Source: Candidatus Paceibacterota bacterium
GTDB taxonomy: Bacteria > Actinomycetota > Actinomycetes > Nanopelagicales > Nanopelagicaceae
Assembly: GCA_035530615.1 (NCBI GenBank)
Contig: DATKUL010000002.1
Coordinates: forward strand, 1,012,322-1,076,321
DNA length: 64,000 bases
Direction of reading: 5' to 3'
This document shows, one piece after another, positions 33,786 to 47,522 of this stretch (its first letter is position 1; every line of letters starts with the position of its first letter). The notes beneath the pieces were generated by a model. It saw only the letters and a list, made by a program, of their open reading frames with translations, had not been told where the DNA came from and made no database searches. The position numbers and the translations under genes were made by a program.

Positions 33786-33899
33786 TCAGCAGCAACTTGC
33801 TGAATCCGTTGAGCAGCAGGCTTCCGAGTCAGTCGAACACGCACATACAGTGGCATCCGAACAACAATCCTCTTTGGTTTCAATCTTTATATCAGCCAT
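33786..33899 (-). CDS. 37-residue cysteine-rich micropeptide divergent from ArsR
   Basis: A 38-codon frame with a clear AGGAG site six bases before its ATG. The peptide starts MADIKIETKED and then has cysteines at 12, 13, 19, 21, 28, 29, 36 and 37, that is CC, CxC, CC and CC, eight in 37 residues, separated by Ser/Thr/Asp/Ala. It is acidic and ends with the last CC pair. It diverges from arsR across a 41-base gap containing an ArsR-type palindrome. The pattern suggests binding of arsenite or a soft metal, metallothionein-like. I know no named family for it. Confidence 0.65.
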   Translation of the reverse strand: MADIKIETKEDCCSDATVCACSTDSEACCSTDSASCC

Positions 33900-33910
33900 T
33901 CGATTCTCCT

Positions 33911-33926
33911 ATCGAAGTTTGTCGAT
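33911..33926. promoter_or_regulatory. ArsR-type operator
   Basis: ATCGA-N6-TCGAT is a perfect 5-bp inverted repeat midway between the divergent micropeptide and arsR starts. ArsR/SmtB repressors bind ATCAA-N6-TTGAT-like sites, so this one probably controls both genes. Confidence 0.6.
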
Positions 33927-33940
33927 GTATAGTTGGGCAT

Positions 33941-34228
33941 ATGATCCAGTCGCTCTTCCTCCAGAAATCACCCCAGGCAACCGCGCGCTTAGCAGAGCAG
34001 TACAAAGCTCTGGGCGATGCCACGCGACTCTCCCTCCTCATGGCGGTGGCTCAAGGTGAGAATGCGCGAGCCTGTGTCTGCGATCTGACCCCGGATACAG
34101 GTCTGGCCCAGAGCACGGTAAGCCACCACCTCAAGATCTTGGTTGAGGCAGGACTCTTGAGCAGAACACAGAAAGGCAAGTGGGCCTTTTATGAAGTGAC
34201 CAATGAGGCGAAGAAGTTACTCAAGTAG
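33941..34228 (+). CDS. arsR: ArsR-family metalloid-responsive repressor
   Basis: A 95-residue winged-helix repressor starting MIQSLFLQKSP. EQYKALGDATRLSLLMAVAQ is the family opening; the recognition helix is GLAQSTVSHHLKILVEAGLL. RACVCDL in helix 3 is the classical cysteine site for arsenite/antimonite. The frame continues upstream to 33797, but that part overlaps the divergent micropeptide and has no family match. An MMPL transporter starts 30 bases downstream. Confidence 0.87.
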   Translation: MIQSLFLQKSPQATARLAEQYKALGDATRLSLLMAVAQGENARACVCDLTPDTGLAQSTVSHHLKILVEAGLLSRTQKGKWAFYEVTNEAKKLLK

Positions 34229-34258
34229 AAAAAAGAGAGTTCTGGTTAGACTCCAAGA

Positions 34259-36418
34259 ATGCTCGAAAGATGGACGCGCGCGGTAATACGCCATCGATTG
34301 GTAATTACTGCGGGATGGCTGATTCTGATCGTCCTTGGGCTCATCGCGGCATCCAATCTTGGTCCTCATCTCACGACATCGCTTTCAGTCCCCGGTAGCC
34401 AGTCGGAAAAAGCCGATCAAATACTTTCCAGACATTTTCAAGAAAATATTGAAGGCACCTTCACGGTAGTTTTCAAATTCAAGAATGCATCAAAAGATGA
34501 AATTGAAGGATTTAAGGCAAAAATTAGATCAGCGACATCGACAATTCCTACGGCGACCGTAACTCTTGAGAAGGCGTTAGGTGGCATTCTTTACGCAAAT
34601 GTTGGAACATCTTTCAAGTTGACTGATGCCGCTTACTACACCGATGAACTCCGAAGCGCTCTATCAGAACAAGGATTAGAGGGCGCACTCGTAACCGGCC
34701 CTCCTGCGATTTATCGAGATGTCACGCCCGTTCTTGCCTCCGATTTACATCGCGGTCAAGGGGTGGCGATTCTGCTCGCCTTGTTGCTGCTGTTCTTAGT
34801 TCTTGGAGCGTGTTGGGCTATCGCAGTTCCTTTCATATTTGCCGCTGCCACAATTTCATTGACGCTCGGAGTCGTTTACTTATTGGCGCAAAAATTCTTG
34901 ATGGTCCTATATATTCCAAATATCGTCGAGCTCATCGGTCTCGGCCTCGCTATCGACTACTCCTTACTCATCGTCCATCGCTTCCGGCGAGAACTCCTTG
35001 AAAAGGATGAGACCGCTACAGTCGATGCGGTTGTCAAGACAATGCAGACTGCGGGTCGCACGGTCATACTCTCGGGCGTAAGCGTCGCGATCGGTCTGGC
35101 TACATTGCTACTCGTGCCCGTACCATTCGTGCGCTCCCTAGGTGCGGCAGGGCTACTGGTTCCGATCGCATCGATTACCGCTGCCCTTACCCTCCAACCG
35201 GCCTTGCTCTCTTACCTTGGCAAAGGTGGAACCAGCCCGAGAGGTTTCGCAGGACTCCTGGCGAAGAAGGATGTTATGAATGGGATATTCGCCAGAGTTG
35301 CCCACTTCGTCATTCGTCGTCCAGTATCTGTCCTGCTTTCTTCAATGGCAATTCTTGGAATATTCACTTCCGCGCTCTTCTGGCTACAAGCAACTCCTAG
35401 TTCGTTGACCGCAATACCTGCCGAACTTGAGTCAGCGCGCGCACTCTCGGTGGTGGAAGGCAACTTGGGATCCGGAATTATCACTCCCATTGAAATCGCC
35501 TTTGATCTTGGTGCACCAGGAAAAGCGACTCTTGAACGGGTTGTCGACGCTCGAATCTCTCTGGCAGAACGAATTCTTAAAGACCCCGAGGTTTTCACTG
35601 TTGCAATCGGCGAAAAGGCACCATTTGTTGATCCCACCGGACGCTACCTGCGAATGTTTGTGATCGGAAGTCACGCCTTGGGAGCCGAAGCGTCTCAAAA
35701 ATTAGTGGGCAATTTGCGCAAAGTGTACATCCCTCAATCTGACTTCCCAGACGGTACGAGAATATTTATCGGTGGAGCCCCCGCCCAGGGAGCAGATCTA
35801 CTTGAAAGAATCTTTACATCATTCCCGTGGATAGTTCTGCTCATACTCCTGCTTGTCTACGCAGTTCTGCTTCGCGCATTCCGTTCAGTCATTCTCCCGC
35901 TGAAAGCCATCTTGATGGATTTGATTTCAATCGCGGTCGCATACGGATCATTGGTACTCGTCTTCAGATTTGGGGCAGGATCCTCGATTCTTGGCACCTA
36001 TCGACTTGATCAAATTGAAGCATGGGTCCTTATCTTTCTCTTTGCAGCTCTCTTCGGACTCTCAATGGATTACGAAGTCTTCATCGTTTCAAGAATGCGA
36101 GAAGCCCGCAGTCGTGGAGCGACAAATACTGAGGCAATTGTTGAGGGTATGGCACATACCGGCGGCGTTGTTACCGCAGCGGCCGTCATTCTCGTGGGTG
36201 CACTCAGCGGTCTGGTCTTTGGCCACTTCGCCGGTTTACAGCAACTCGGTATCGGCCTCTCCTTGGGAGTCCTTGTTGATGCGACGATTATTCGTGGACT
36301 CCTACTACCAAGTGCGATGGTTCTACTGGGCCGATGGAATTGGTGGCTTCCAGCGTCAGTAGCCAAAATTGTAAAGACTAAAGCCTCGCCTCTCGGAGAG
36401 CGAGAGGCGAGGCTTTAG
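34259..36418 (+). CDS. MMPL/RND-family transporter
   Basis: A 719-residue membrane protein with two repeats of an exported loop plus about five helices (twelve helices in total). IGLGLAIDYSLLIVHRFRRE near residue 222 and ALFGLSMDYEVFIVSRMREA near residue 600 are the paired MMPL motifs with the proton-relay aspartates. Members export lipids or drugs. Its position 30 bases after arsR suggests shared transcription, although an arsenic role for MMPL proteins is not established. The last codons lie within a terminator hairpin. Confidence 0.9.
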   Translation: MLERWTRAVIRHRLVITAGWLILIVLGLIAASNLGPHLTTSLSVPGSQSEKADQILSRHFQENIEGTFTVVFKFKNASKDEIEGFKAKIRSATSTIPTATVTLEKALGGILYANVGTSFKLTDAAYYTDELRSALSEQGLEGALVTGPPAIYRDVTPVLASDLHRGQGVAILLALLLLFLVLGACWAIAVPFIFAAATISLTLGVVYLLAQKFLMVLYIPNIVELIGLGLAIDYSLLIVHRFRRELLEKDETATVDAVVKTMQTAGRTVILSGVSVAIGLATLLLVPVPFVRSLGAAGLLVPIASITAALTLQPALLSYLGKGGTSPRGFAGLLAKKDVMNGIFARVAHFVIRRPVSVLLSSMAILGIFTSALFWLQATPSSLTAIPAELESARALSVVEGNLGSGIITPIEIAFDLGAPGKATLERVVDARISLAERILKDPEVFTVAIGEKAPFVDPTGRYLRMFVIGSHALGAEASQKLVGNLRKVYIPQSDFPDGTRIFIGGAPAQGADLLERIFTSFPWIVLLILLLVYAVLLRAFRSVILPLKAILMDLISIAVAYGSLVLVFRFGAGSSILGTYRLDQIEAWVLIFLFAALFGLSMDYEVFIVSRMREARSRGATNTEAIVEGMAHTGGVVTAAAVILVGALSGLVFGHFAGLQQLGIGLSLGVLVDATIIRGLLLPSAMVLLGRWNWWLPASVAKIVKTKASPLGEREARL
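36380..36416. terminator. 16-bp palindromic terminator overlapping the MMPL stop
   Basis: AAAGCCTCGCCTCTCG and its exact complement flank a five-base GAGAG loop. AAA/TTT ends make it usable on both strands, fitting its place between the convergent MMPL and secreted-protein genes. The hairpin encodes the last residues of the MMPL protein. Confidence 0.75.
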
Positions 36419-36434
36419 AACGATTGCTTGCGAA

Positions 36435-38123
36435 CTACTTTACGATTGTTATTGCGAAGTGGTACGCAGGGATCTGATAGCCAAGAGCTAAACCGACATA
36501 GTCGCGGTCAGCCGATAACACCGGCACCATTCCGTATGGAGTATTGGCAAATGACGGCTGCTGTGTGTACAGAATTGGGTGAAGATCAATGATGTGAGTA
36601 CCTGGGGCTCCTGTAGCCCTGATGTGCACCACCATGTACCCATTTGAATTGAATCCACAGCCATACCCAATGTAACTATTGTCATAGGTGACGGCCAGAG
36701 TGTTATCTAGTTGCGTCCAACCAACTCCCTTAATGCTTATAGTGATTTCTTCACCGGCTTTAAACTTCGTGGTTGGCTTGCCGGTACCACCTGTAGCAAA
36801 GGCTTCTGGGGTTCCAGAGTTATCGGCCTTTGCGATACCCATTCCGATAACTTTGCCTGCTTTATCGTAGAAAGGTACGATGCTCTGCTTTACATAGAAT
36901 GGAACCTGAGCTTCAATTACGTCACCTTGCTTTACTTGAATGACGTGCCATCCACCTAGGTGATCTGGAATTGTAACTTCTTTGCTCATCGTGTTTCCCG
37001 TGACATCAACGCTTGCTAATGGCAAGGAGTTATAGACCCAGCAAGTTCCAGTGCAATTGACACGGTTACCGACGACGGTAGCCCACACGATTTGGTGCGT
37101 GCCCTTTGTAGTCAATCCGGTGACATTAACGGTGGTCTTCGTGTTGATAGGACCGCTCGTAGCTGACAATGTTGCTACAGCAGTGGTGTTCGGATCTAAC
37201 CCGACAGTCGACAACGTGGTTCGTTGAGTCAAAGTTGGTTCAACTTTCGCTGGCCAAGTGATTGACGCCTTAGGGGCCCCGTTGTCCTTCGTGACCTTGA
37301 AAGCGGCTACGGCACCATTTGCATAAGGAACTGGTGATTGCAAGATATTGAGGTAGGCAAAAGTAATGGCATCCTTTACTTCTACATAGTGAGTTCCGAT
37401 TGGTCCTGCGGCACGAATAACAACCTTACCGGTTCCACGTGTCCACAGAGCCTGCATTTCACCTGCATAACTGCTATCCCAGTGGACTGCCGCACCCGCG
37501 GTGTAAAGGCTTGCACCAAGACCCGTATATGTGATGGTGATCGGTGTTCCAATTGGGCCGCTCTTGGGCGAGATAGTCAGGGTGCGTGTCATCTGGAAAC
37601 CACCGTGGCCCACGGCGACACCATTTTGAACTGCAAAAATATCATGAATGCCACCGAAGTCTGATGGGACTTTGGTCGGATAGGTAAAAGCTCCGCTGGC
37701 ATCTGTGGTGACAGATGCGATATCTACGTTGTACTTGGTGTACTTAGTGCCCAAATAATTGACGCTATTTGGCTGAACATCTGCGACCCAGGTTCCATCT
37801 GCTGTCGACCAAGTCAACATCAGAGCAGTGCTGGCAGGAAGTCCTTTTCCGGAAATCACCATCGGCTTTCCGACTGTGCTCTGATCGGGAGTGACGGTTA
37901 AATTGAGCATATTTTCTGGAGTGGTGAAAGCTGCGGACTTCACTCCTGTAAATGGAAGTGGTGCCACGTCTGGCAGACCAGATGGTACGACCAGTGGAAT
38001 TGGAACGACTGGATTAGTGTCGGCGCCGCTAGCTGGACTCATCATCGCTATCGGAAGTATTGAAACTACTAACGCGCGAAGAACCAAGGTTCGTCTTCGT
38101 TCTGATAAGAATTTTGATCTCAT
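36435..38123 (-). CDS. secreted multi-domain Ig-like protein
   Basis: A 562-residue exported protein. A basic N-terminus and hydrophobic stretch (VLRALVVSILPIAMMSPASGA) form the signal peptide. Three or four beta-sandwich segments follow, each with a pattern such as VTPDQSTVGKPMVISGKGLP or ISPKSGPIGTPITITYTGLG, reminiscent of IPT/TIG domains, and GTHYVEV/GTHIIDLHP strand ends. One cysteine pair (NCTGTC) is present. No enzyme motif or wall anchor. Probably extracellular binding or structural. Confidence 0.7.
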   Translation of the reverse strand: MRSKFLSERRRTLVLRALVVSILPIAMMSPASGADTNPVVPIPLVVPSGLPDVAPLPFTGVKSAAFTTPENMLNLTVTPDQSTVGKPMVISGKGLPASTALMLTWSTADGTWVADVQPNSVNYLGTKYTKYNVDIASVTTDASGAFTYPTKVPSDFGGIHDIFAVQNGVAVGHGGFQMTRTLTISPKSGPIGTPITITYTGLGASLYTAGAAVHWDSSYAGEMQALWTRGTGKVVIRAAGPIGTHYVEVKDAITFAYLNILQSPVPYANGAVAAFKVTKDNGAPKASITWPAKVEPTLTQRTTLSTVGLDPNTTAVATLSATSGPINTKTTVNVTGLTTKGTHQIVWATVVGNRVNCTGTCWVYNSLPLASVDVTGNTMSKEVTIPDHLGGWHVIQVKQGDVIEAQVPFYVKQSIVPFYDKAGKVIGMGIAKADNSGTPEAFATGGTGKPTTKFKAGEEITISIKGVGWTQLDNTLAVTYDNSYIGYGCGFNSNGYMVVHIRATGAPGTHIIDLHPILYTQQPSFANTPYGMVPVLSADRDYVGLALGYQIPAYHFAITIVK

Positions 38124-38267: not shown

Positions 38268-39221
38268 TTAAGCCTTTGGAACTGCGTACAGCGTGAGCTG
38301 GGAGGAAGGAGTGAAGTTTGACTTCCAGGTTCCAACTGCGCCTGCGAGAGGAGGGTCTACCGCCAAGGTTCGGAAGAATGGAACGCGCTCATAAACGTAT
38401 CTTCCATCTACTTTCACAGCAACGCCGTTGACCATCTTGCGTGACAACCTGGTTGTAAGGACTTTCACCGAAGTCTGCTCCTTAGCAATCATCGTTACCT
38501 TGAAGTTGATGACACCCAAGGTGCTGTACTGACCTACAGCTGTTCCAGTCCTAATAACGGCGGTCCAAAATGCAACGCCACTGTGGTTTCCATAAGAGAG
38601 AGGAATTGGATCAGCAATGCCAGCAACTTCAATGTATGCCTTCTCCGTATTTGTTGGATCCATTACCGCTCCAGCCAAATCAGCGTTATTGGCGTAGACG
38701 CGGAACACGATTCCTTGTCCAACGATGAACTCACTCGTGATCGCGCAACTTACGCCAAATCGTGGTGCAAGTGGACCAGAAGTTCCGCTCGCGAGGACGG
38801 TATCAACGTACATGTGAATCGGTGAAACTACCCCTTGAACTGGTACACCAACTTTTACGGTGAAGGCAGCGGCATCAATTGGAGTGAAGGCAGCGGCATC
38901 AGTTGGCGTAAATGATCCATTAAGAACAGTGGCGCCACTTGCTGCCGGCATCCATGAACATTGTGCTACAAATGGTGTAACTGTGGTGGTAGCAACTGCT
39001 TCGCAACCCTTAATTACTACCCCGGCTGCTGAGAACTTCACAGTTCCTGCGTTATTTGCGGTGGCTTTGATAATCGCTGGAGTAAGTCCAAACACCGCAC
39101 TTCCTCCAGAAAGCACGAGCGTTGAGGGAGCAGCCACTGCAAAAGCAGGGGCACCTCCCACAACTGCGCCACCGACTGCTGCAAGAGCACTGATGACAAT
39201 GCTCGAGATAAATCGTTTCAT
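38268..39221 (-). CDS. secreted protein of unknown function
   Basis: A 317-residue exported protein with signal peptide MKRFISSIVISALAAVGGAV up to PAFA. The first part looks like an Ig-like repeat (LVLSGGSAVFGLTPAIIKAT, then GTVKFSAAGVVIKGCEA); an eight-residue duplication (TDAAAFTP/IDAAAFTV) follows. The rest is beta-rich with no recognised motif. It lies between two other secreted-protein genes in the same direction. The function is not known. Confidence 0.7.
   Translation of the reverse strand: MKRFISSIVISALAAVGGAVVGGAPAFAVAAPSTLVLSGGSAVFGLTPAIIKATANNAGTVKFSAAGVVIKGCEAVATTTVTPFVAQCSWMPAASGATVLNGSFTPTDAAAFTPIDAAAFTVKVGVPVQGVVSPIHMYVDTVLASGTSGPLAPRFGVSCAITSEFIVGQGIVFRVYANNADLAGAVMDPTNTEKAYIEVAGIADPIPLSYGNHSGVAFWTAVIRTGTAVGQYSTLGVINFKVTMIAKEQTSVKVLTTRLSRKMVNGVAVKVDGRYVYERVPFFRTLAVDPPLAGAVGTWKSNFTPSSQLTLYAVPKA
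38860..38907 (-). repeat. 24-bp tandem duplication within a coding region
   Basis: Two adjacent 24-base copies (38860-38883 and 38884-38907) differ at only two positions. They encode the doubled DAAAFT segment of the secreted protein and keep the frame. Confidence 0.85.
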
Positions 39222-39265: not shown

Positions 39266-39943
39266 CTATTTGGTGGTGATGTTGCCGGTGAGAGTCAAAG
39301 TCAGTGCCGTGCTCTCGCTAAAACCGGCGTCTTTAGACTTAATAGCAAAGGATCCCGTCACTTTGAGAGTTCCAGTAGCCCCCGCATATTTTCCACTTCC
39401 ACCAGTGACAGTGGCGTTGCCTGTAATTGTGATTGTGGTTGGTGCGGCGCCTTCAGCTGCACATGCCTTAGCGGTTGAATCGAAGGCAACCTTCAAGGTG
39501 TTTCCGCCCCCACTAAGAACTCCAGTACCATCAAATGCGTCACATTGATTTTGTGGCGCAGCTGATCCGGTTCCTGTTAACTCATCCAAGCCAAGGACGT
39601 TTCCGGTTCCAGCTGCCGTTACTGAAGTGGCGCGGACGTCACTGTCGCTCCAAAGAATGGACATCTTTCCTTTGTATGTTCCAGAAAAGGCGACCGTTCC
39701 CGCAGTGGTTTTCGCCGGAGTCGCTGTTGGCTTTGGCGTTACTTTCACCACTGGTTTCTTCGTTGTATAACCCTTTGGACATTTTGGACTAACAGCAGTT
39801 ACCTTCTTTACGATCTTTCCCTTGTAACACTTGATCGTCTTTTTAGTTACCGCATTTGCAACCGTTGTATTCGCGGTGACTAGACCAAATACCGCAATGA
39901 CAATTAATGCTTTTGCTAATGTTGATTTACGTACGTTTTTCAC
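39266..39943 (-). CDS. small secreted protein with Lys/Cys repeat-like N-terminus
   Basis: A 225-residue exported protein. After a signal peptide (ALIVIAVFGLVTANTTVANA) comes TIKCYKGKIVKKVTAVSPKC followed by PKGYTTKK, a cysteine-bearing Lys-rich segment I associate with secreted proteins of small freshwater Actinobacteria. A proline/threonine linker leads to a beta-rich domain (SGTYKGKMSILWSD ... GGSGKYAGATGTLKVTGSF). GTG start with GAGGAA. The role is unknown. It is the first gene downstream of the 32-bp repeat array. Confidence 0.72.
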   Translation of the reverse strand: MKNVRKSTLAKALIVIAVFGLVTANTTVANAVTKKTIKCYKGKIVKKVTAVSPKCPKGYTTKKPVVKVTPKPTATPAKTTAGTVAFSGTYKGKMSILWSDSDVRATSVTAAGTGNVLGLDELTGTGSAAPQNQCDAFDGTGVLSGGGNTLKVAFDSTAKACAAEGAAPTTITITGNATVTGGSGKYAGATGTLKVTGSFAIKSKDAGFSESTALTLTLTGNITTK

Positions 39944-40052
39944 TTTAATTCCTCATCTCTCCCTGAGTTACAGCCTCTTTTTCTTATGCCTGAATCCTTT
40001 CACCCCATCCTTGATCGAGGTAATTCTAGTTGAGGGCTAGCACTTCGCAAAG

Positions 40053-40180
40053 TATTCCATTAGTCACACACTGTTTTTTTTAACTATTCCCTACGTCACA
40101 TATGTATTTCGCAAAGTATTCGCTACATCACACTTTTTGAAAACGACATACTCCATGCGTCACACAATAACTTTCTTAAA
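40053..40180. repeat. four tandem 32-bp iterons in a divergent promoter region
   Basis: Copies start at 40053, 40085, 40117 and 40149, exactly 32 bases apart. Each opens with TATTCCnTnnGTCACAnA (variants TATTCG.., TACTCC..); copies 2 and the segment before copy 1 also share TTCGCAAAG just before the motif. Read on the other strand the core is TGTGAC, a Crp-like half site. The spacing equals about three DNA turns, so a bound protein would line up on one face. The region (39944-40458) lies between the secreted-protein gene and the copper-linked gene; the remaining about 280 bases hold nothing I recognise. Confidence 0.7.
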
Positions 40181-40458: not shown

Positions 40459-41571
40459 ATGAAGAAATTTGGCAAGATTGCGGCTGCATTAATAGCCGTG
40501 GGTGGGGTTGCACTTTTAAGCATCCAACTCACTAGGGACTCGACTTCGATCAATCCAATCGTTTCCTCTGAGATCTTTGTGGGAGGTGACCTACACACGC
40601 TGACCGTGGCAGGTTCACAAATCGTCGTCACAGGTCATGAGAGCGCAGCGATCTCCACAGATGGAGGAAGCAACTGGAAAGCCCTCAAGACTCTTGCAGG
40701 TGCCGATGTCATGGGGTGGGCCTCCGGTACCAATACAGTCTTTGCAGGAGGGCACATCGGCCTTTTCAGATCTCAAGGCAATAATGATGATTTTGCTCGG
40801 GTTAAATTCTACGAGGGATTATCAGATGTTCACTCTGTGGGTGCGTCCGGACAATTTGTATACCTAGCCTCACCCGATATCGGACTCATGGCTTCGGTGG
40901 ATGATGGCAAGACATGGACTCTTCGAAATTCCCAAATGGGAAAGGGATTCATGGGTTCGATATTGGTCGATTCAAAAAATCCTATGAAAATTCTCGCCGC
41001 TGACATGCAACAAGGATCGCTCTCGAGTATGGACGGCGGGAAGAGTTGGAAAAGCTTGGGTGGTCCCGATGGCCCAATGGCGATGGCGTGGAATCCATCC
41101 AATAATTCAGAGATAGTAGTTATAGGTATGACCGGCGCAGGAATGAGCCTGGACGGCGGAAAGACATGGTCAAGTATTGCTGTTCCGAGTGGAGCAGCGG
41201 CAATCTCGTTTTCCAAGAATGGAAAACGAATATACGCCGCATCCTTGCAGGCTCCATTTGCTCGCATATTCATAAGTTCTGATCGTGGAAAAAGTTGGTC
41301 TCCACTCAAGGCCGCAAGCAATTCCCTCAATTCGGACGTTGCTGCAGATCAACCAACGAGTGACATGGATCCAAACATGCCTGGGATGGACCACTCAGCC
41401 TCATCTGATGAACATAACGAGGAGCCAAAACGCCCACTCGCCGCTGTTCTCGGAGTCTTCGGACTAGCCTCGTCCGTAGTGATTTCAACTGCGGGGGTAT
41501 TGAAACGAAAAGACCGAGTCGCGCGTGAAAAGAAGTTAGCGCAAAGAAAAACACGCGGTGACCAGAAATGA
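40459..41571 (+). CDS. membrane-anchored BNR/sortilin-like protein with Met/His metal tail
   Basis: A 370-residue protein. An N-terminal hydrophobic segment (IAAALIAVGGVALLSIQL) is a signal or anchor. BNR-type repeats follow (ISTDGGSNWK, ASVDDGKTWT, SSMDGGKSWK, MSLDGGKTWS, ISSDRGKSWS), about five to six blades. Near residue 300 is DMDPNMPGMDH, a Met/His-rich stretch suited to copper, then a second hydrophobic helix and a basic tail. AGGAGA precedes the ATG. It overlaps the polyferredoxin gene by four bases, pointing to a joint role in metal or redox chemistry at the membrane. Confidence 0.78.
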   Translation: MKKFGKIAAALIAVGGVALLSIQLTRDSTSINPIVSSEIFVGGDLHTLTVAGSQIVVTGHESAAISTDGGSNWKALKTLAGADVMGWASGTNTVFAGGHIGLFRSQGNNDDFARVKFYEGLSDVHSVGASGQFVYLASPDIGLMASVDDGKTWTLRNSQMGKGFMGSILVDSKNPMKILAADMQQGSLSSMDGGKSWKSLGGPDGPMAMAWNPSNNSEIVVIGMTGAGMSLDGGKTWSSIAVPSGAAAISFSKNGKRIYAASLQAPFARIFISSDRGKSWSPLKAASNSLNSDVAADQPTSDMDPNMPGMDHSASSDEHNEEPKRPLAAVLGVFGLASSVVISTAGVLKRKDRVAREKKLAQRKTRGDQK

Positions 41572-42968
41572 AAACTACAGACAATTTAACGGAATTGGAA
41601 GTTGAAGACCAAACCATCGAGTCTCGTGGAGTCGATCTACTTAAATTTCGACCAGTAAAAGCCTTTATGACGAGCCGATATTTTCCCAAAATATTTCAAA
41701 TTCCCGTCGCAGCCGTCTTCGGTTTAATCGGATACCAACTTCTTGCCGGCCCATCTAGCGCACATGAAAATCCCGGAACGGCCCTCATGTGGGTTCTGTG
41801 GTGGCCGCTCATTCCGATCGTTTTTCTCTTCTTAGGCAGGTTCTGGTGCGCTATTTGCCCATTTGCCACGCTTTCGGATTTTGTCCAAAAATTGGTTGGC
41901 GTTAACCGACCAGTTCCAGCGTTTCTAAAGCGTTATGGGATCTGGATTATCGACGCCACTTTTATCGCGATCACGTGGGCTGATCATGTATTCGGAATCG
42001 TTTCGTCCCCATGGGGCTCTGGGATCCTGCTTTTGCTCATAACTTTCGCAGTAATAGTCTCTGGCGCTTTCTTCCAACGCCGCACCTTCTGTCGCTACCT
42101 CTGTTTTCTGGGTGGCCTCTCCGGAAACTATGCACGAACTGGAATGATCGCCTTAAGGGCAAATACTGATATCTGCGAAACATGCTCCTCTAAGGCGGCG
42201 TGTTTTAACGGCACCGAAAAAGCTCCAGCTTGTCCGCTATTCACTTTTCCGAGGACGATGGACTCGAACTCGAACTGCGTTCTGTGCGCAAACTGCATAA
42301 AGAACTGCCCAAATGATGCGATTACATTGACACTACGGAAACCAACGAAAGAACTTTGGTTTATTCGCAGTCCAAAAGTTGAAGAGTCATTTTTGGCGAT
42401 GGCAATTATGGGAATTGTCCTTATCCAAAACATAACGATGTTGGAGGTTTGGGATCAAATACTTTCCTCCGTGCATCGGATAACTGGGATAACAAACAGT
42501 GCAATCATTTTCACAGGAGTATTTGCCCTGGGTGTCATGCTTCCAGTTGCATTACTCTCCCTTGTCGCCCGAATCGCTTCGCGGAGTAACTTAGAGAGCA
42601 CATTCCAAAATTTTGCACGATTTGGATATGCGCTCATCCCCCTAGATGTTGCCGGCCATGTCGCCCATAACCTCTTTCATCTTCTAGCCGAGGGCAAGTC
42701 GGTCTACTATTCCGTGGGATCATTATTTGGAAGCCAGGCCACTGGCTCCGCTGCTCTCGTGAGTAACGGGACAATTCGAATCCTTCAGTTCTTCATCTTG
42801 GCACTTGGACTCTGGGGTTCAATGTACACAGTTCGTCGAATCACCTATCGCCGTTACTCGAGTGCCAGAATGCGCAAGTCAACGTTGATTCCTTATACGG
42901 CACTCGTCGGAATCCTCATGGCTCTAAATGTGGCGATGTTTCTCTTCCCTATGGCACACCGCATGTAA
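41568..42968 (+). CDS. FixG/NapH-like membrane polyferredoxin
   Basis: A 466-residue membrane protein with about nine hydrophobic helices. WCAICPFATLSD near residue 100 and FCRYLCFLGGLSG near residue 174 are the membrane cysteine motifs of the NosR/CcoG/NapH group. A cytoplasmic insert has CETCSSKAAC...CP and CVLCANCIKNCP, enough for two [4Fe-4S] clusters. It likely passes electrons through the membrane. CcoG reduces copper for oxidase assembly in other bacteria; the neighbouring Met/His protein makes a copper link attractive but unproven. Confidence 0.83.
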   Translation: MKTTDNLTELEVEDQTIESRGVDLLKFRPVKAFMTSRYFPKIFQIPVAAVFGLIGYQLLAGPSSAHENPGTALMWVLWWPLIPIVFLFLGRFWCAICPFATLSDFVQKLVGVNRPVPAFLKRYGIWIIDATFIAITWADHVFGIVSSPWGSGILLLLITFAVIVSGAFFQRRTFCRYLCFLGGLSGNYARTGMIALRANTDICETCSSKAACFNGTEKAPACPLFTFPRTMDSNSNCVLCANCIKNCPNDAITLTLRKPTKELWFIRSPKVEESFLAMAIMGIVLIQNITMLEVWDQILSSVHRITGITNSAIIFTGVFALGVMLPVALLSLVARIASRSNLESTFQNFARFGYALIPLDVAGHVAHNLFHLLAEGKSVYYSVGSLFGSQATGSAALVSNGTIRILQFFILALGLWGSMYTVRRITYRRYSSARMRKSTLIPYTALVGILMALNVAMFLFPMAHRM

Positions 42969-42973
42969 AAAAA

Positions 42974-44074
42974 TCAAATAATCGGTAGGGCGAGAGTGAA
43001 TATCGATCCTAAGTGACGGCCATCGCTAGTCGCGGTGAGCGTTCCGCCATGACCTTGGGCGATGCTTCGGGCAATGGTTAGGCCAAGCCCAGAACCAGAA
43101 TCTCCCGACGTCCGAGCGCTATCCCCTCGGTAGAGGCGGTCGAAAATGTGTGGAAGTTGGTGTGCCTCCATCCCTTCTCCACTGTCTTGGACTATGAACT
43201 GCACAAGACTCTTCACTGCTTTGACCTCTAAAGTCACCTCGTCGCCACGAGAAGTATGTCGGAGGGCATTTTCCAAAAGATTGGAGAGAACTTGTCCAAT
43301 GCGCTGGGCGTCAACATGCAGCATCGGCAACTGGTCTGCTACTTGAAATTTAAGTCTCACATCCTTGTTCTCATATCTTGGCCGCCACGCGGCAAAGGCC
43401 GAGATGACAATCGCGCTGGGATCAACAGGATAAATGACTTTGCTGAGCGATTGATCAAGATTTTGGGATACATCCCGAACGTCGTGGGATAAACGGTTAA
43501 GTTTTCCAAGTTGATCACGAATTGTCTTCCACGAATGTGCATCGCCACGAACAACCCCGTCCTCAATACCATCAATGATTGCGCCAACGGTAGCGATCGG
43601 AGTACGAAGTTCGTGTGCAAGATCGCTTAACATGCGCTCTTGATTTTCTTTACTAAGCGCCAAGTCCGCCGACATCCCTGCCAACGCGGTGGCCAGTCGA
43701 TCGAGTTCTGACGATGACCTATCAAAATTCGGTTGCACTCCCGAATTGCCCGCAGCGAGCGTTTCGGCGAATAAAGTCACCCTCTCTATTGGTTTTACGA
43801 TCCTACGCATAAATACCCAAGCTATTAACCCAGAAAGTATCAGTGAAGTGAGTGCCGAGATAATGAGTGCAAGATTAAATGAGGCAGTAAAAGCCTCGGT
43901 TACGTGTGCATGAGCCTCTTCGGAGGTGATCCCCGCTTCTTCCAGGTGCTTGTGAAATATTGAAGGCGCGATATATGACGCGGTGCCGATAAGTATCAAT
44001 CCAGATAACAAAATAAGAAGTGTCTGCCCGACTAGCATCTGAGTCATGAGACTCCGCTTGCGATGGATTCTCAC
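42974..44074 (-). CDS. sensor histidine kinase of the copper operon
   Basis: A 366-residue kinase with two N-terminal helices around a short external loop rich in His/Glu (EEAGITSEEAHAHVTEAF), a HAMP linker near residue 95, the phosphoacceptor box LSDLAHELRTPIATVGAI near residue 155, NLLENALRHTS and GSGLGLTIARS. The external histidines could bind copper. Its start overlaps the response regulator stop by four bases; together they sit behind copA. Confidence 0.9.
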   Translation of the reverse strand: MRIHRKRSLMTQMLVGQTLLILLSGLILIGTASYIAPSIFHKHLEEAGITSEEAHAHVTEAFTASFNLALIISALTSLILSGLIAWVFMRRIVKPIERVTLFAETLAAGNSGVQPNFDRSSSELDRLATALAGMSADLALSKENQERMLSDLAHELRTPIATVGAIIDGIEDGVVRGDAHSWKTIRDQLGKLNRLSHDVRDVSQNLDQSLSKVIYPVDPSAIVISAFAAWRPRYENKDVRLKFQVADQLPMLHVDAQRIGQVLSNLLENALRHTSRGDEVTLEVKAVKSLVQFIVQDSGEGMEAHQLPHIFDRLYRGDSARTSGDSGSGLGLTIARSIAQGHGGTLTATSDGRHLGSIFTLALPII

Positions 44075-44778
44075 TTCAATTCCATTCCATAACCAATTCC
44101 ACGGACAGTTCGAATTAAATCCTCTGAAGCCCCCGCATCAGTGAGCTTCTTTCGCAGGTGGCCAATATGTACGTCCACGACGTGAACCTCACCGAACCAC
44201 TCGCCTCCCCATACTGACTCAAGAAGAGACTTACGAGAAAAGACATTCTTAGGGTGTTCAATCATGGTTTCCAAGAGATCGAACTCTGTCCTTGTGAGCT
44301 CTACTGACGCCTGCCCGACCATAACCGTCCTCGAACTCGCATTTAAGGTGACGGATTCAAAAAGAAAGACATTTGAAAGTGATTCATCATCGCCTTCACT
44401 CGATTTCGTTCGAGGCCTACGCAAGATTGCTCTAGAGCGTGCAATGAGCTCTCGCGGCGAAAATGGTTTCACCACATAGTCATCTGCGCCTACCGCAAAG
44501 CCAACCACTTTATCTACTTCTTCATCGCGAGCGGTCAGCATCAAGATGTATGCATCAGAAAATGTTCGAACCTGCCTGCACACTTCAATACCGTCAAAGC
44601 CTGGCAGCATCACATCTAGAATTATGAGGTCGGGCGGTGCTAAGCGAGCTTTCTCCACCGCGCTTGGACCATCAAGTGCCTGATCGACGATATAACCTTC
44701 ACGTTCAAAATAACTCACGATCACAGCCGCAAGCTCTGCTTCATCCTCGACTACAAGGACACGAAGTGGATTACTCAT
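44071..44778 (-). CDS. OmpR-family response regulator
   Basis: A 235-residue regulator. The receiver domain has VVEDEAELA and [13 protein letters not shown] (phosphorylated Asp about residue 53) with [15 protein letters not shown]. The C-terminal winged helix shows [16 protein letters not shown] and [12 protein letters not shown], then [10 protein letters not shown]. Paired with the kinase downstream and overlapping copA upstream by four bases, so it probably controls the copper operon. Confidence 0.92.
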
Positions 44779-46886
44779 GCATGCCTACCTCGAAGTCTCA
44801 AAGCGTTGGCGATCACGGAGGTAGAACTTAGACTCATTGCCAGCGCTGCAATCATGGGCGAAAGGATCAATCCAGTAAAGGGATACAGGACTCCGGCCGC
44901 AATTGGCACCCCTAGAGAGTTGTAGACGAAGGCAAAAAATAGATTCTGGCGCATATTTGCGACCGTATCCTTCGAAAGTCTCCTTGCCGCTGCAATTGAA
45001 CGTAAGTCCCCCTTTACCAATGTAACTTGCCCACTGTGCATCGCAACATCGGTGCCAGTACCCATTGAGATTCCGATATTAGCCTGAGCAAGTGCCGGTG
45101 CATCGTTCACACCATCTCCAGCCATTGCCACAAATTTTCCTTGGTTCTGAAATTTGCGAACTAACTCCAGTTTGTCGGATGGTTTCACATCGCCATAAAC
45201 CTCTGTAATATTTAATTTTGAGGCAATACTCCTGGCACTACTCAAGTTATCTCCGGAAGCCATAACCAAATGGATGCCTGAACTCATGAGATCAGCAACT
45301 GCTTCAGGGGATGTCTGCTTTATCTTGTCGTTGAGAGAGATCAATCCCAATATCGCATCATCTTCTGAGACAAACATGATGCTTGATCCATGGGAACTAA
45401 CTTCAGTGGCTTCGAGTCGCATCGGTTCGATATCAATCTTTGAATTGACCAAGAACTGAGCGTTTCCAACCAGTACGCGTTTTCCATCCAACTTTCCCTC
45501 TACTCCGAAGCCGGGGTGAGATTTGAATTCAATCACTTTTCCCACGTGCAGATTTTCCTTGGCTGCTTCCCGAACAATTGCGGTCGCCAGAGGGTGTTCA
45601 CTTAGACTTTCGAGAGTCGCTGCAACAGATAGAACACGACTTTCTTCGATTCCAGAAACCGCGATGACACTCTCCACATATGGCCGTCCCTCCGTCAAGG
45701 TGCCAGTTTTATCAACGATCAAAGTATCGATTTTGTGAAAATTCTCAATTGCAGCGGCGTCTTTAAAGAGGATCCCAGAAGTTGCTCCTCTACCCGATGC
45801 GACCATGATAGACATCGGTGTTGCCAAGCCGAGGGCACAAGGGCAAGCAATGATGAGTACGGCTACCGCATTTATTACCCCATACGTCCAAGAAGATTCG
45901 CCACCGAGTAAACCCCAGACTATAAAGGTCAGTATTGCCACGGCAATTACAGTTAAGACGAAGTAGCGGGAGACCGTATCCGCCATCCTCTGCATGGGCG
46001 CTTTGGACCGTTGCGCCTGAGAGACCAGACTTACAATCTGCGAAAGGACGGAAGCGGATCCAACCTTCTCGGCCCTAATGTGAAGTGAACCATCGGAATT
46101 TATCGTCCCTCCAATAACTTTATTGGTTACTTCTTTTAGTACTGGCAAAGGTTCACCGGTAAGCATGGACTCGTCAACGCTACTCATACCTTCTATCACT
46201 TCCCCATCGACAGGAATCGTCTCTCCAGGGCGGACAATCAATATATCTTTGACCATGACCTGCGTAAGCAGAACCTCCTCATCTGACCCGTCAGCTTTGC
46301 GTCGGCGGGCAGTCTTAGGGGCCAATTTCAAAAGAGCCTTAATTGCCGAAGATGTCTCTGCCCTCGCCTTAAGCTCAATGACCTGCCCCAGCAAGGTCAA
46401 GGAAATGATTACTGAGGCAGCCTCGAAATAGACGCCTACCTTCCCATCCGTCCGGAACGAAGCGGGAAAAATGTCTGGGACTGCTGTGGCGGCGAAGCTA
46501 TACACGTACGCCGCCCCGGTGCCCAAACCAATGAGGGTCCACATATTTGGACTCCTATATATGAACGACATCCACGCACGCTGGAAGAATGGTTTCCCAG
46601 CCCAGAGAATCACTGGTGTCGCAATTAGTAGAGACAACCACTCTCCACGGTCCGCAAGCGCACCCGGAAGACCAGATCCAACAATGGCGACGAAAATCGC
46701 TAGCACAGTAAGTGGTAATGACCAGAGAAAACGCTTCTTGAGATCAAGGAGCTCAACATTCTCGACCTCGGTCTCGAAATCCGCTTTTGGTTCAAGCGAC
46801 ATTCCGCATTTGGGACAATTCCCTGGCTCAAATCTCACAATTTCCGGATGCATCGGACACGTGTACTCGATTACATTGTTATTCAT
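44775..46886 (-). CDS. copA: copper-translocating P1B-type ATPase
   Basis: Exports copper across the cytoplasmic membrane using ATP. The 703-residue protein starts with a short metal-binding segment ([12 protein letters not shown] ... [11 protein letters not shown]) instead of an HMA domain. Eight helices surround the CPC motif ([11 protein letters not shown]), the phosphorylation site is DKTGTLTEG, the nucleotide domain has SEHPLATAI, and [15 protein letters not shown] closes the P-domain. Upstream lie DUF305 and a small membrane protein; downstream the two-component pair. All point to copper detoxification. Confidence 0.93.
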
Positions 46887-46922
46887 TTAGCTCTCCTATC
46901 TCAAAAAAGACTACCTCCCCGC

Positions 46923-47522
46923 CTACTTTCCTAATTTGATAATCATTTTCTTCATGGCTGCAATTTCTGTGCTCTGAGCTTTCTTGATATTGGCCGCCAA
47001 AACTTTCACATCACTTCTTGTCGAGGCGGAAATCCACGAAACCATCTGCAAGGCTCCGGCGTGGTGCTCAACCATCGCCATCAAAAAGCTCTTGTCGAAC
47101 GCTCTTCCTTTGAGGCTCTTCAATTGGGCAAGTTGAGTTGGGCTTAGCATTCCGGACGCTCCCATGGAGTGACTCGACGTCATAGATTGGCCAGAGCTCT
47201 TGATCCAGGAAGTCATTTGAGCGATTTCACCTTTCTGAGCAGCAATAATTTTCTTAGCAAGTCCAATAACATTGGCATTGCTTGAATTCTTCAACGTGTA
47301 CCAAGACATGGTTATTGCCTGCCGGTGATGTGGAATCATCGCCTGGGCGAACATGATCTCCATATCACCGTAAGCCATAGTGGAGGCACTCGAAAGCCGT
47401 GGCGGCAGAGCGCTGGCTGGGAAAATAGCAAATGAACTAAACATGACAGATACAACTGCTGGTAAGAAAATTCGACGAAACATTATTGGACCTCTCTCAA
47501 TTTGTGGACATGGAAAATACAT
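46923..47522 (-). CDS. DUF305 exported protein
   Basis: A 199-residue exported protein, signal peptide to about residue 37 (VVSVMFSSFAIFPASA). The DUF305 domain shows MIPHHRQAITMSWYTLK near residue 59 and MVEHHAGALQMV near residue 147, the doubled HH helices typical of the family, with several methionines. DUF305 proteins accompany copper resistance genes in many bacteria; a role in periplasmic or surface copper binding is inferred. It lies 37 bases before copA. Confidence 0.88.
   Translation of the reverse strand: MYFPCPQIERGPIMFRRIFLPAVVSVMFSSFAIFPASALPPRLSSASTMAYGDMEIMFAQAMIPHHRQAITMSWYTLKNSSNANVIGLAKKIIAAQKGEIAQMTSWIKSSGQSMTSSHSMGASGMLSPTQLAQLKSLKGRAFDKSFLMAMVEHHAGALQMVSWISASTRSDVKVLAANIKKAQSTEIAAMKKMIIKLGK

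Follow-up and report, generated by a model that had tools for sequence, protein, structure and literature searches.

The window (the whole 64,000-nucleotide stretch of DNA analysed) contains four 16-bp units lying between two divergent genes at 39266-39943 on the minus strand and 40459-41571 on the plus strand, an arrangement that the first-pass annotation had placed correctly. The units begin at 40053, 40085, 40117 and 40149 with a spacing of 32/32/32 bp, read TGTGAYnnAnnnRATA on the minus strand and depart from TATTCCNTNNGTCACANA by 0, 0, 3 and 1 mismatches, respectively. The minus-strand gene, referred to here as A1, heads an operon of three genes encoding secreted proteins. The features of the region are as follows.

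36435..38123, minus strand: third operon gene, secreted protein without a Pfam family, on the same strand in 67 of 72 loci
38268..39221, minus strand: second operon gene, secreted protein without a Pfam family, on the same strand in 70 of 72 loci
39266..39943, minus strand: target gene A1, secreted 225-aa protein with a C-terminal beta-barrel
39994..40002, minus strand: extended -10-like element TGAAAGGAT (consensus TGnAAaGAT), at a fixed distance to unit 1
40033..40044, no strand: palindrome AGTGCTAGCCCT (consensus AGnGnTAnCnCT), candidate operator for a second regulator, located by gapless alignment
40053..40068, minus strand: unit 1 (proximal), TGTGACTAATGGAATA, PWM score 18.3, aligned without gaps with 64 homologue promoters
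40085..40100, minus strand: unit 2, TGTGACGTAGGGAATA, PWM score 23.4
40117..40132, minus strand: unit 3, TGTGATGTAGCGAATA, PWM score 20.1
40149..40164, minus strand: unit 4 (distal), TGTGACGCATGGAGTA, PWM score 14.9
40459..41571, plus strand: divergent gene, BNR/Asp-box, F510_1955-like

When the window was simulated 300 times with a first-order Markov model, evenly spaced chains of sites with at most three mismatches per site never exceeded a length of two, compared with four in the window itself. The sequence TTCGCAAAG, which had been reported to precede two of the units, does so at 40044 and 40108 (units 1 and 3) but is absent as a conserved element in relatives and looks like a local duplication. 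In the genome-wide motif search called for by the first-pass annotation, the relaxed pattern occurred without mismatch in the 2.16-Mb genome at this locus only, with single-mismatch matches elsewhere close to the level of the reversed-pattern control and the final consensus GTGAYNNANNNRATA giving 17 matches compared with 13 in the control. As these other matches are near the control level, those inspected lying mostly in coding sequence, a wider regulon of the 16-bp motif was rejected. No match was found in plasmid DNA or in a first scan of genome contigs, and single units were rejected as promoters, having no -10 element in register.

Conservation of the array and the gene it serves

Scanning genome contigs with the A1 alignment identified 72 loci, mostly from freshwater actinobacterial MAGs (Nanopelagicaceae or Planktophila) together with the complete genome IMCC19121 and a few Acidimicrobiia, with the promoter set (n = 72) formed by adding the window promoter and setting locus L158 aside. 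At least one site was present in 66 of the 72 homologue promoters, many of which come from related genomes and are hence non-independent, the total of 120 sites comparing with 1.3 per set in shuffles. Six promoters had no site, three of them from Acidimicrobiia, the few genomes of this group with an A1 homologue (L139, L140 and L157) being without the array. Across the 120 sites G2, T3 and G4 are invariant (120/120), with A5 in 119, T15 in 119, A14 and A16 each in 118, A9 in 114 and T1 in 95; position 13 is A or G, and T8 is found in only 40 of the 120.

Both copy number and spacing vary among these promoters, with one copy in 26, two in 30, three in six and four in four. The spacing is 29-32 bp in 40 of the 54 intervals (27 being exactly 30 bp) and 40-41 bp in six, the exceptions being 23, 25, 28, 35 (twice), 44, 55 and 63 bp; the few arrays with spacings of 23, 25, 28 or 35 bp are out of phase and count against a phased model. 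Many congeners of the window genome have two to four units upstream of their A1 homologues, spaced 32/32 in G017, 30/30 in G013, G015 and G005, 29/29 in G006, 32/31/35 in G002, 23/25/28 in G033 and 40 bp in G009, G010, G014, G019 and G020. The proposed comparison with relatives has thus upheld the motif, its orientation and a spacing of mostly 29-32 or 40-41 bp but not the exact 32-bp interval, which is not a conserved property, the commonest interval being 30 bp.

The association of the array is with the A1 operon exclusively. Searches of 201 genomes of the family and 296 of the order for the tandem-array pattern and the site-plus-palindrome pattern matched roughly one locus in each genome and almost nothing in the controls; each of the 86 loci retrieved (57 + 29) has an A1-family gene next to the site. 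Upstream of relatives of the plus-strand gene no array was present in any of the six cases read (five in the genus and one from the window's own genome), such that array control of gene 40459 was rejected. Because A1 homologues carry the array and relatives of the plus-strand gene do not, the array is assigned to the minus-strand gene alone, with the divergent gene probably outside its control. The earlier proposal of cooperative binding by a regulator with about three-turn phasing at a promoter is well supported by the family-wide motif, orientation and prevailing spacing, while the implied service of both divergent genes was not borne out. The array is a promoter element of the minus-strand operon 39943-36435, conserved in Nanopelagicaceae.

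No Pfam match above the cut-off was obtained for the three operon proteins, and literature searches found no study of the A1 operon or the 16-bp motif. Among the best structural neighbours of the A1 model, at Z of about 10-13, are dirigent proteins, allene oxide cyclases and Diels-Alderases. A Foldseek search with the model gave no match at E <= 0.001; the neighbours suggest a fold, not a function. Residues about 26-64 of the A1 protein (39269-39943) contain the segment CYKGxxVKKVTAxxPKCPxGY, which recurs in many otherwise different family proteins, at up to 14 places per genome, and is possibly a surface-attachment module. An MMPL transporter belongs, with the three operon genes, to the conserved neighbourhood; at 33797-36418 on the plus strand it and an ArsR-type regulator lie convergent to the operon, and the MMPL neighbour is seen again in G090 and G134. 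On the other side, the region 40459-47522 encodes the F510_1955-like BNR protein, a NapH-like 4Fe-4S protein, a two-component system, an HMBD-bearing P-type ATPase and a DUF305 protein, a cluster probably concerned with copper handling, parts of which are grouped at a distance from the array operon in G002, G005, G006 and G018.

Promoter geometry and a second promoter

With 65 promoters aligned without gaps at their gene-proximal unit, the palindrome AGnGnTAnCnCT occupies positions 25-36 and TGnAAaGAT positions 67-75. Within the palindrome G26 is conserved in 63 of the 65, G28 in 61, T30 in 60, A31 in 62 and C35 in 64, while the second element has T67 in 51, G68 in 57, A71 in 62 and T75 in 53. 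The sequence TGnAAaGAT resembles, and may well be, an extended -10 element, with transcription predicted to start near 39987; no conserved -35 box was present in the alignment of 65 promoters, and therefore transcription should depend on activators contacting RNA polymerase. By analogy, the centre of the proximal unit, near -73 from the predicted start, would be in a class I activator position as known from E. coli CRP promoters. Tandem CRP-dependent class I promoters of E. coli have several activator sites about 31-32 bp apart, and like them the A1 promoter would have its sites aligned along one side of the helix, with the proximal one predicted near -73, and has no good -35 box. It differs in having up to four units and a conserved adjacent palindrome, and activation is only the presumed mode of action here.

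The palindrome was rejected as a CIRCE or HspR site, the half-sites being alike but the spacing and core of those sites different. A literature text search for GAGTGCTAGCACTC gave no match, and exact matches to the palindrome genome-wide were at about the control level. Several exact palindromes elsewhere nevertheless precede one gene, encoding a 193-aa membrane protein (G000:C2:325441-326019; L263, L268), with the palindrome or a close variant present once or twice in all 28 promoters of this gene examined. A small GerE/LuxR-type HTH gene (about 106 aa) lies directly upstream of the 193-aa gene in 29 of 30 loci, its product scoring 23.3 bits against Pfam GerE, just under the cut-off of 23.5. 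This gene is linked to the palindrome at the 193-aa gene and shows no linkage to the array operon. Homologues of the 193-aa protein were also found in other actinobacterial families.

In the window genus the promoter of the 193-aa gene reads GTGAYnnAnnTAACT followed by TTAAnnTAnnTCACA, which ends 9 bp before the GnG of the palindrome, the same distance as the RATA end in the A1 promoter. The equal distance indicates an identical 16-bp frame before the palindrome, with the GTGA-type half on the opposite side. Such mirroring between the two promoters points to a reader of two-fold symmetry whose site has a strong half and a weak half. In the 1.86 of 2.16 Mb covered (86% of the genome) the module of site and palindrome occurs exactly twice, at the A1 and 193-aa promoters. 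A second palindrome lies upstream in the A1 promoters of L100, L111, L130, L136 and L137, in which the 16-bp motif is missing or weak or is present as a single site, as if 16-bp sites and palindromes could substitute for one another.

Candidate regulators and readings of the array

The GlxR consensus is TGTGANNTANNTCACA, with the half-site TGTGA(n2)TA (PMC4254451), which is the left half of the array unit. This genome has a CRP-family gene (L380:16869-17420, adjoining nth) for a 227-aa GlxR/Mt-CRP orthologue, the best PDB matches of which are GlxR and mycobacterial CRP, with an identical recognition segment VGASRETVNKALA. The array shares its left half and its 16-bp frame with actinobacterial GlxR/CRP operators, and the encoded orthologue shares the recognition segment of GlxR; the array differs from those operators in its tandem same-strand units and in the replacement of the inverted second half TCACA by nRATA, TCACA being present only in the promoter of the 193-aa gene. 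RATA is nearly invariant in the 120 sites, which a degenerate CRP half-site would not predict, and no perfect TGTGA-N6-TCACA site was present in the 86% of the genome sampled. For these two reasons the array is not claimed to be a CRP operator, and the CRP assignment is provisional: the chances that the orthologue binds the array are about even, with those of another regulator somewhat lower. For the palindrome the most plausible reader, going by linkage alone, is the GerE-type protein. The palindrome resembles the operators of GerE/DosR-type LuxR-family regulators in being dimeric and, at the 193-aa gene, in having a small GerE-type HTH gene close by, with AGnGnTAnCnCT differing in sequence from the DosR box and the reader here being a candidate.

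The model put forward, which we consider to have an even chance of being correct, is of a phased activator-operator array combined with a palindrome for a second regulator. Each 16-bp unit would hold one regulator dimer, with about three (sometimes four) helical turns between units, so that successive dimers would sit along the same side of the helix. The centre of the proximal unit is a fixed 22 bp or so, or two turns, from that of the palindrome, which would hold a second dimer, probably of LuxR/GerE type, with units and palindrome together upstream of the presumed extended -10 promoter. The likeliest array binder would be the CRP/GlxR orthologue of this genome, favoured because the left half of the unit is the CRP half-site TGTGA(n2)TA, and activation is presumed in preference to repression. 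A broader reading, offered tentatively and on balance doubtful, is that a two-factor logic operates in Nanopelagicaceae, in which a CRP-family or unknown regulator reading asymmetric one-and-a-half sites in phased arrays would act with the small LuxR/GerE-type protein on a cell-surface regulon of two promoters, copy number tuning the output between species.

The chief competitor, somewhat short of an even chance, is that the phased array is bound by a non-CRP regulator, for example of OmpR type, with TGTGAY and RATA both specific contacts. The strict asymmetry of the unit, in which GTGA and ATA are nearly invariant, is in keeping with this, as is the presence of OmpR-type regulators (PF00486) in 32 of 32 genomes, with five to nine per array-bearing genome compared with three to five in others. 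OmpR-type sites usually contain a direct repeat, however, and the unit has none internally, its consensus lacking the two half-sites about 11 bp apart that are a trait of OmpR-type operators. In addition, the nearest response-regulator gene (44071-44778) is an unlikely source of the binder, belonging to a copper-type cluster which is located apart from the operon in G002, G005 and G006. In G090 a phosphate-type response regulator lies close to the operon; it was likewise set aside, being 18-19 kb away in G134 and G189 and on a different contig in G000, with no consistent link across genomes. An AraC-family binder was rejected, PF12833 matching in none of 32 family genomes compared with nine of 14 control genomes.

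A role in repression or DNA structuring, in which a cooperative nucleoid-type filament silences or bends the promoter, would account for the regular spacing of about three turns and the varying copy number; the motif is, however, sequence-specific, occurs at a single promoter in each genome and keeps a fixed distance to the palindrome and the -10-like box, which makes this improbable, and the DNA-structuring protein suggested by the first-pass annotation is accordingly an unlikely binder. The word iteron had also been used there, and a replication, centromere or other maintenance site, which we regard as very improbable, would likewise have tandem 16-bp direct repeats at a single locus per genome. 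In plasmid replication iterons, too, one unit is directly repeated at constant intervals, whereas the array is chromosomal and at a promoter, has no replication gene, varies in copy number (one copy in many species) and spacing, keeps a fixed distance to promoter elements and tracks the gene, not genome position or a replication gene; neither a replication initiator gene nor an origin is associated with it, its conserved neighbours being the secreted-protein genes and the MMPL transporter. The duplication of TTCGCAAAG with two of the units, itself not conserved, is what a recent functionless tandem duplication would give, but such an event, or chance, hardly merits consideration for the array as a whole, conservation in 66 of 72 promoters and the simulations having refuted a chance origin of the motif itself.

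Tandem activator sites are known, with the asymmetric units, variable copy number and fixed partner palindrome being new here. Little seems to be known of the promoters of abundant streamlined freshwater actinobacteria, and literature searches found no paper on promoter motifs in Nanopelagicales. Since this promoter is conserved, its elements are mapped and two candidate regulators are named, it is open to direct testing, and because spacing and copy number vary while the proximal geometry is fixed, these promoters provide a natural series for the tuning of promoter output by phased arrays.
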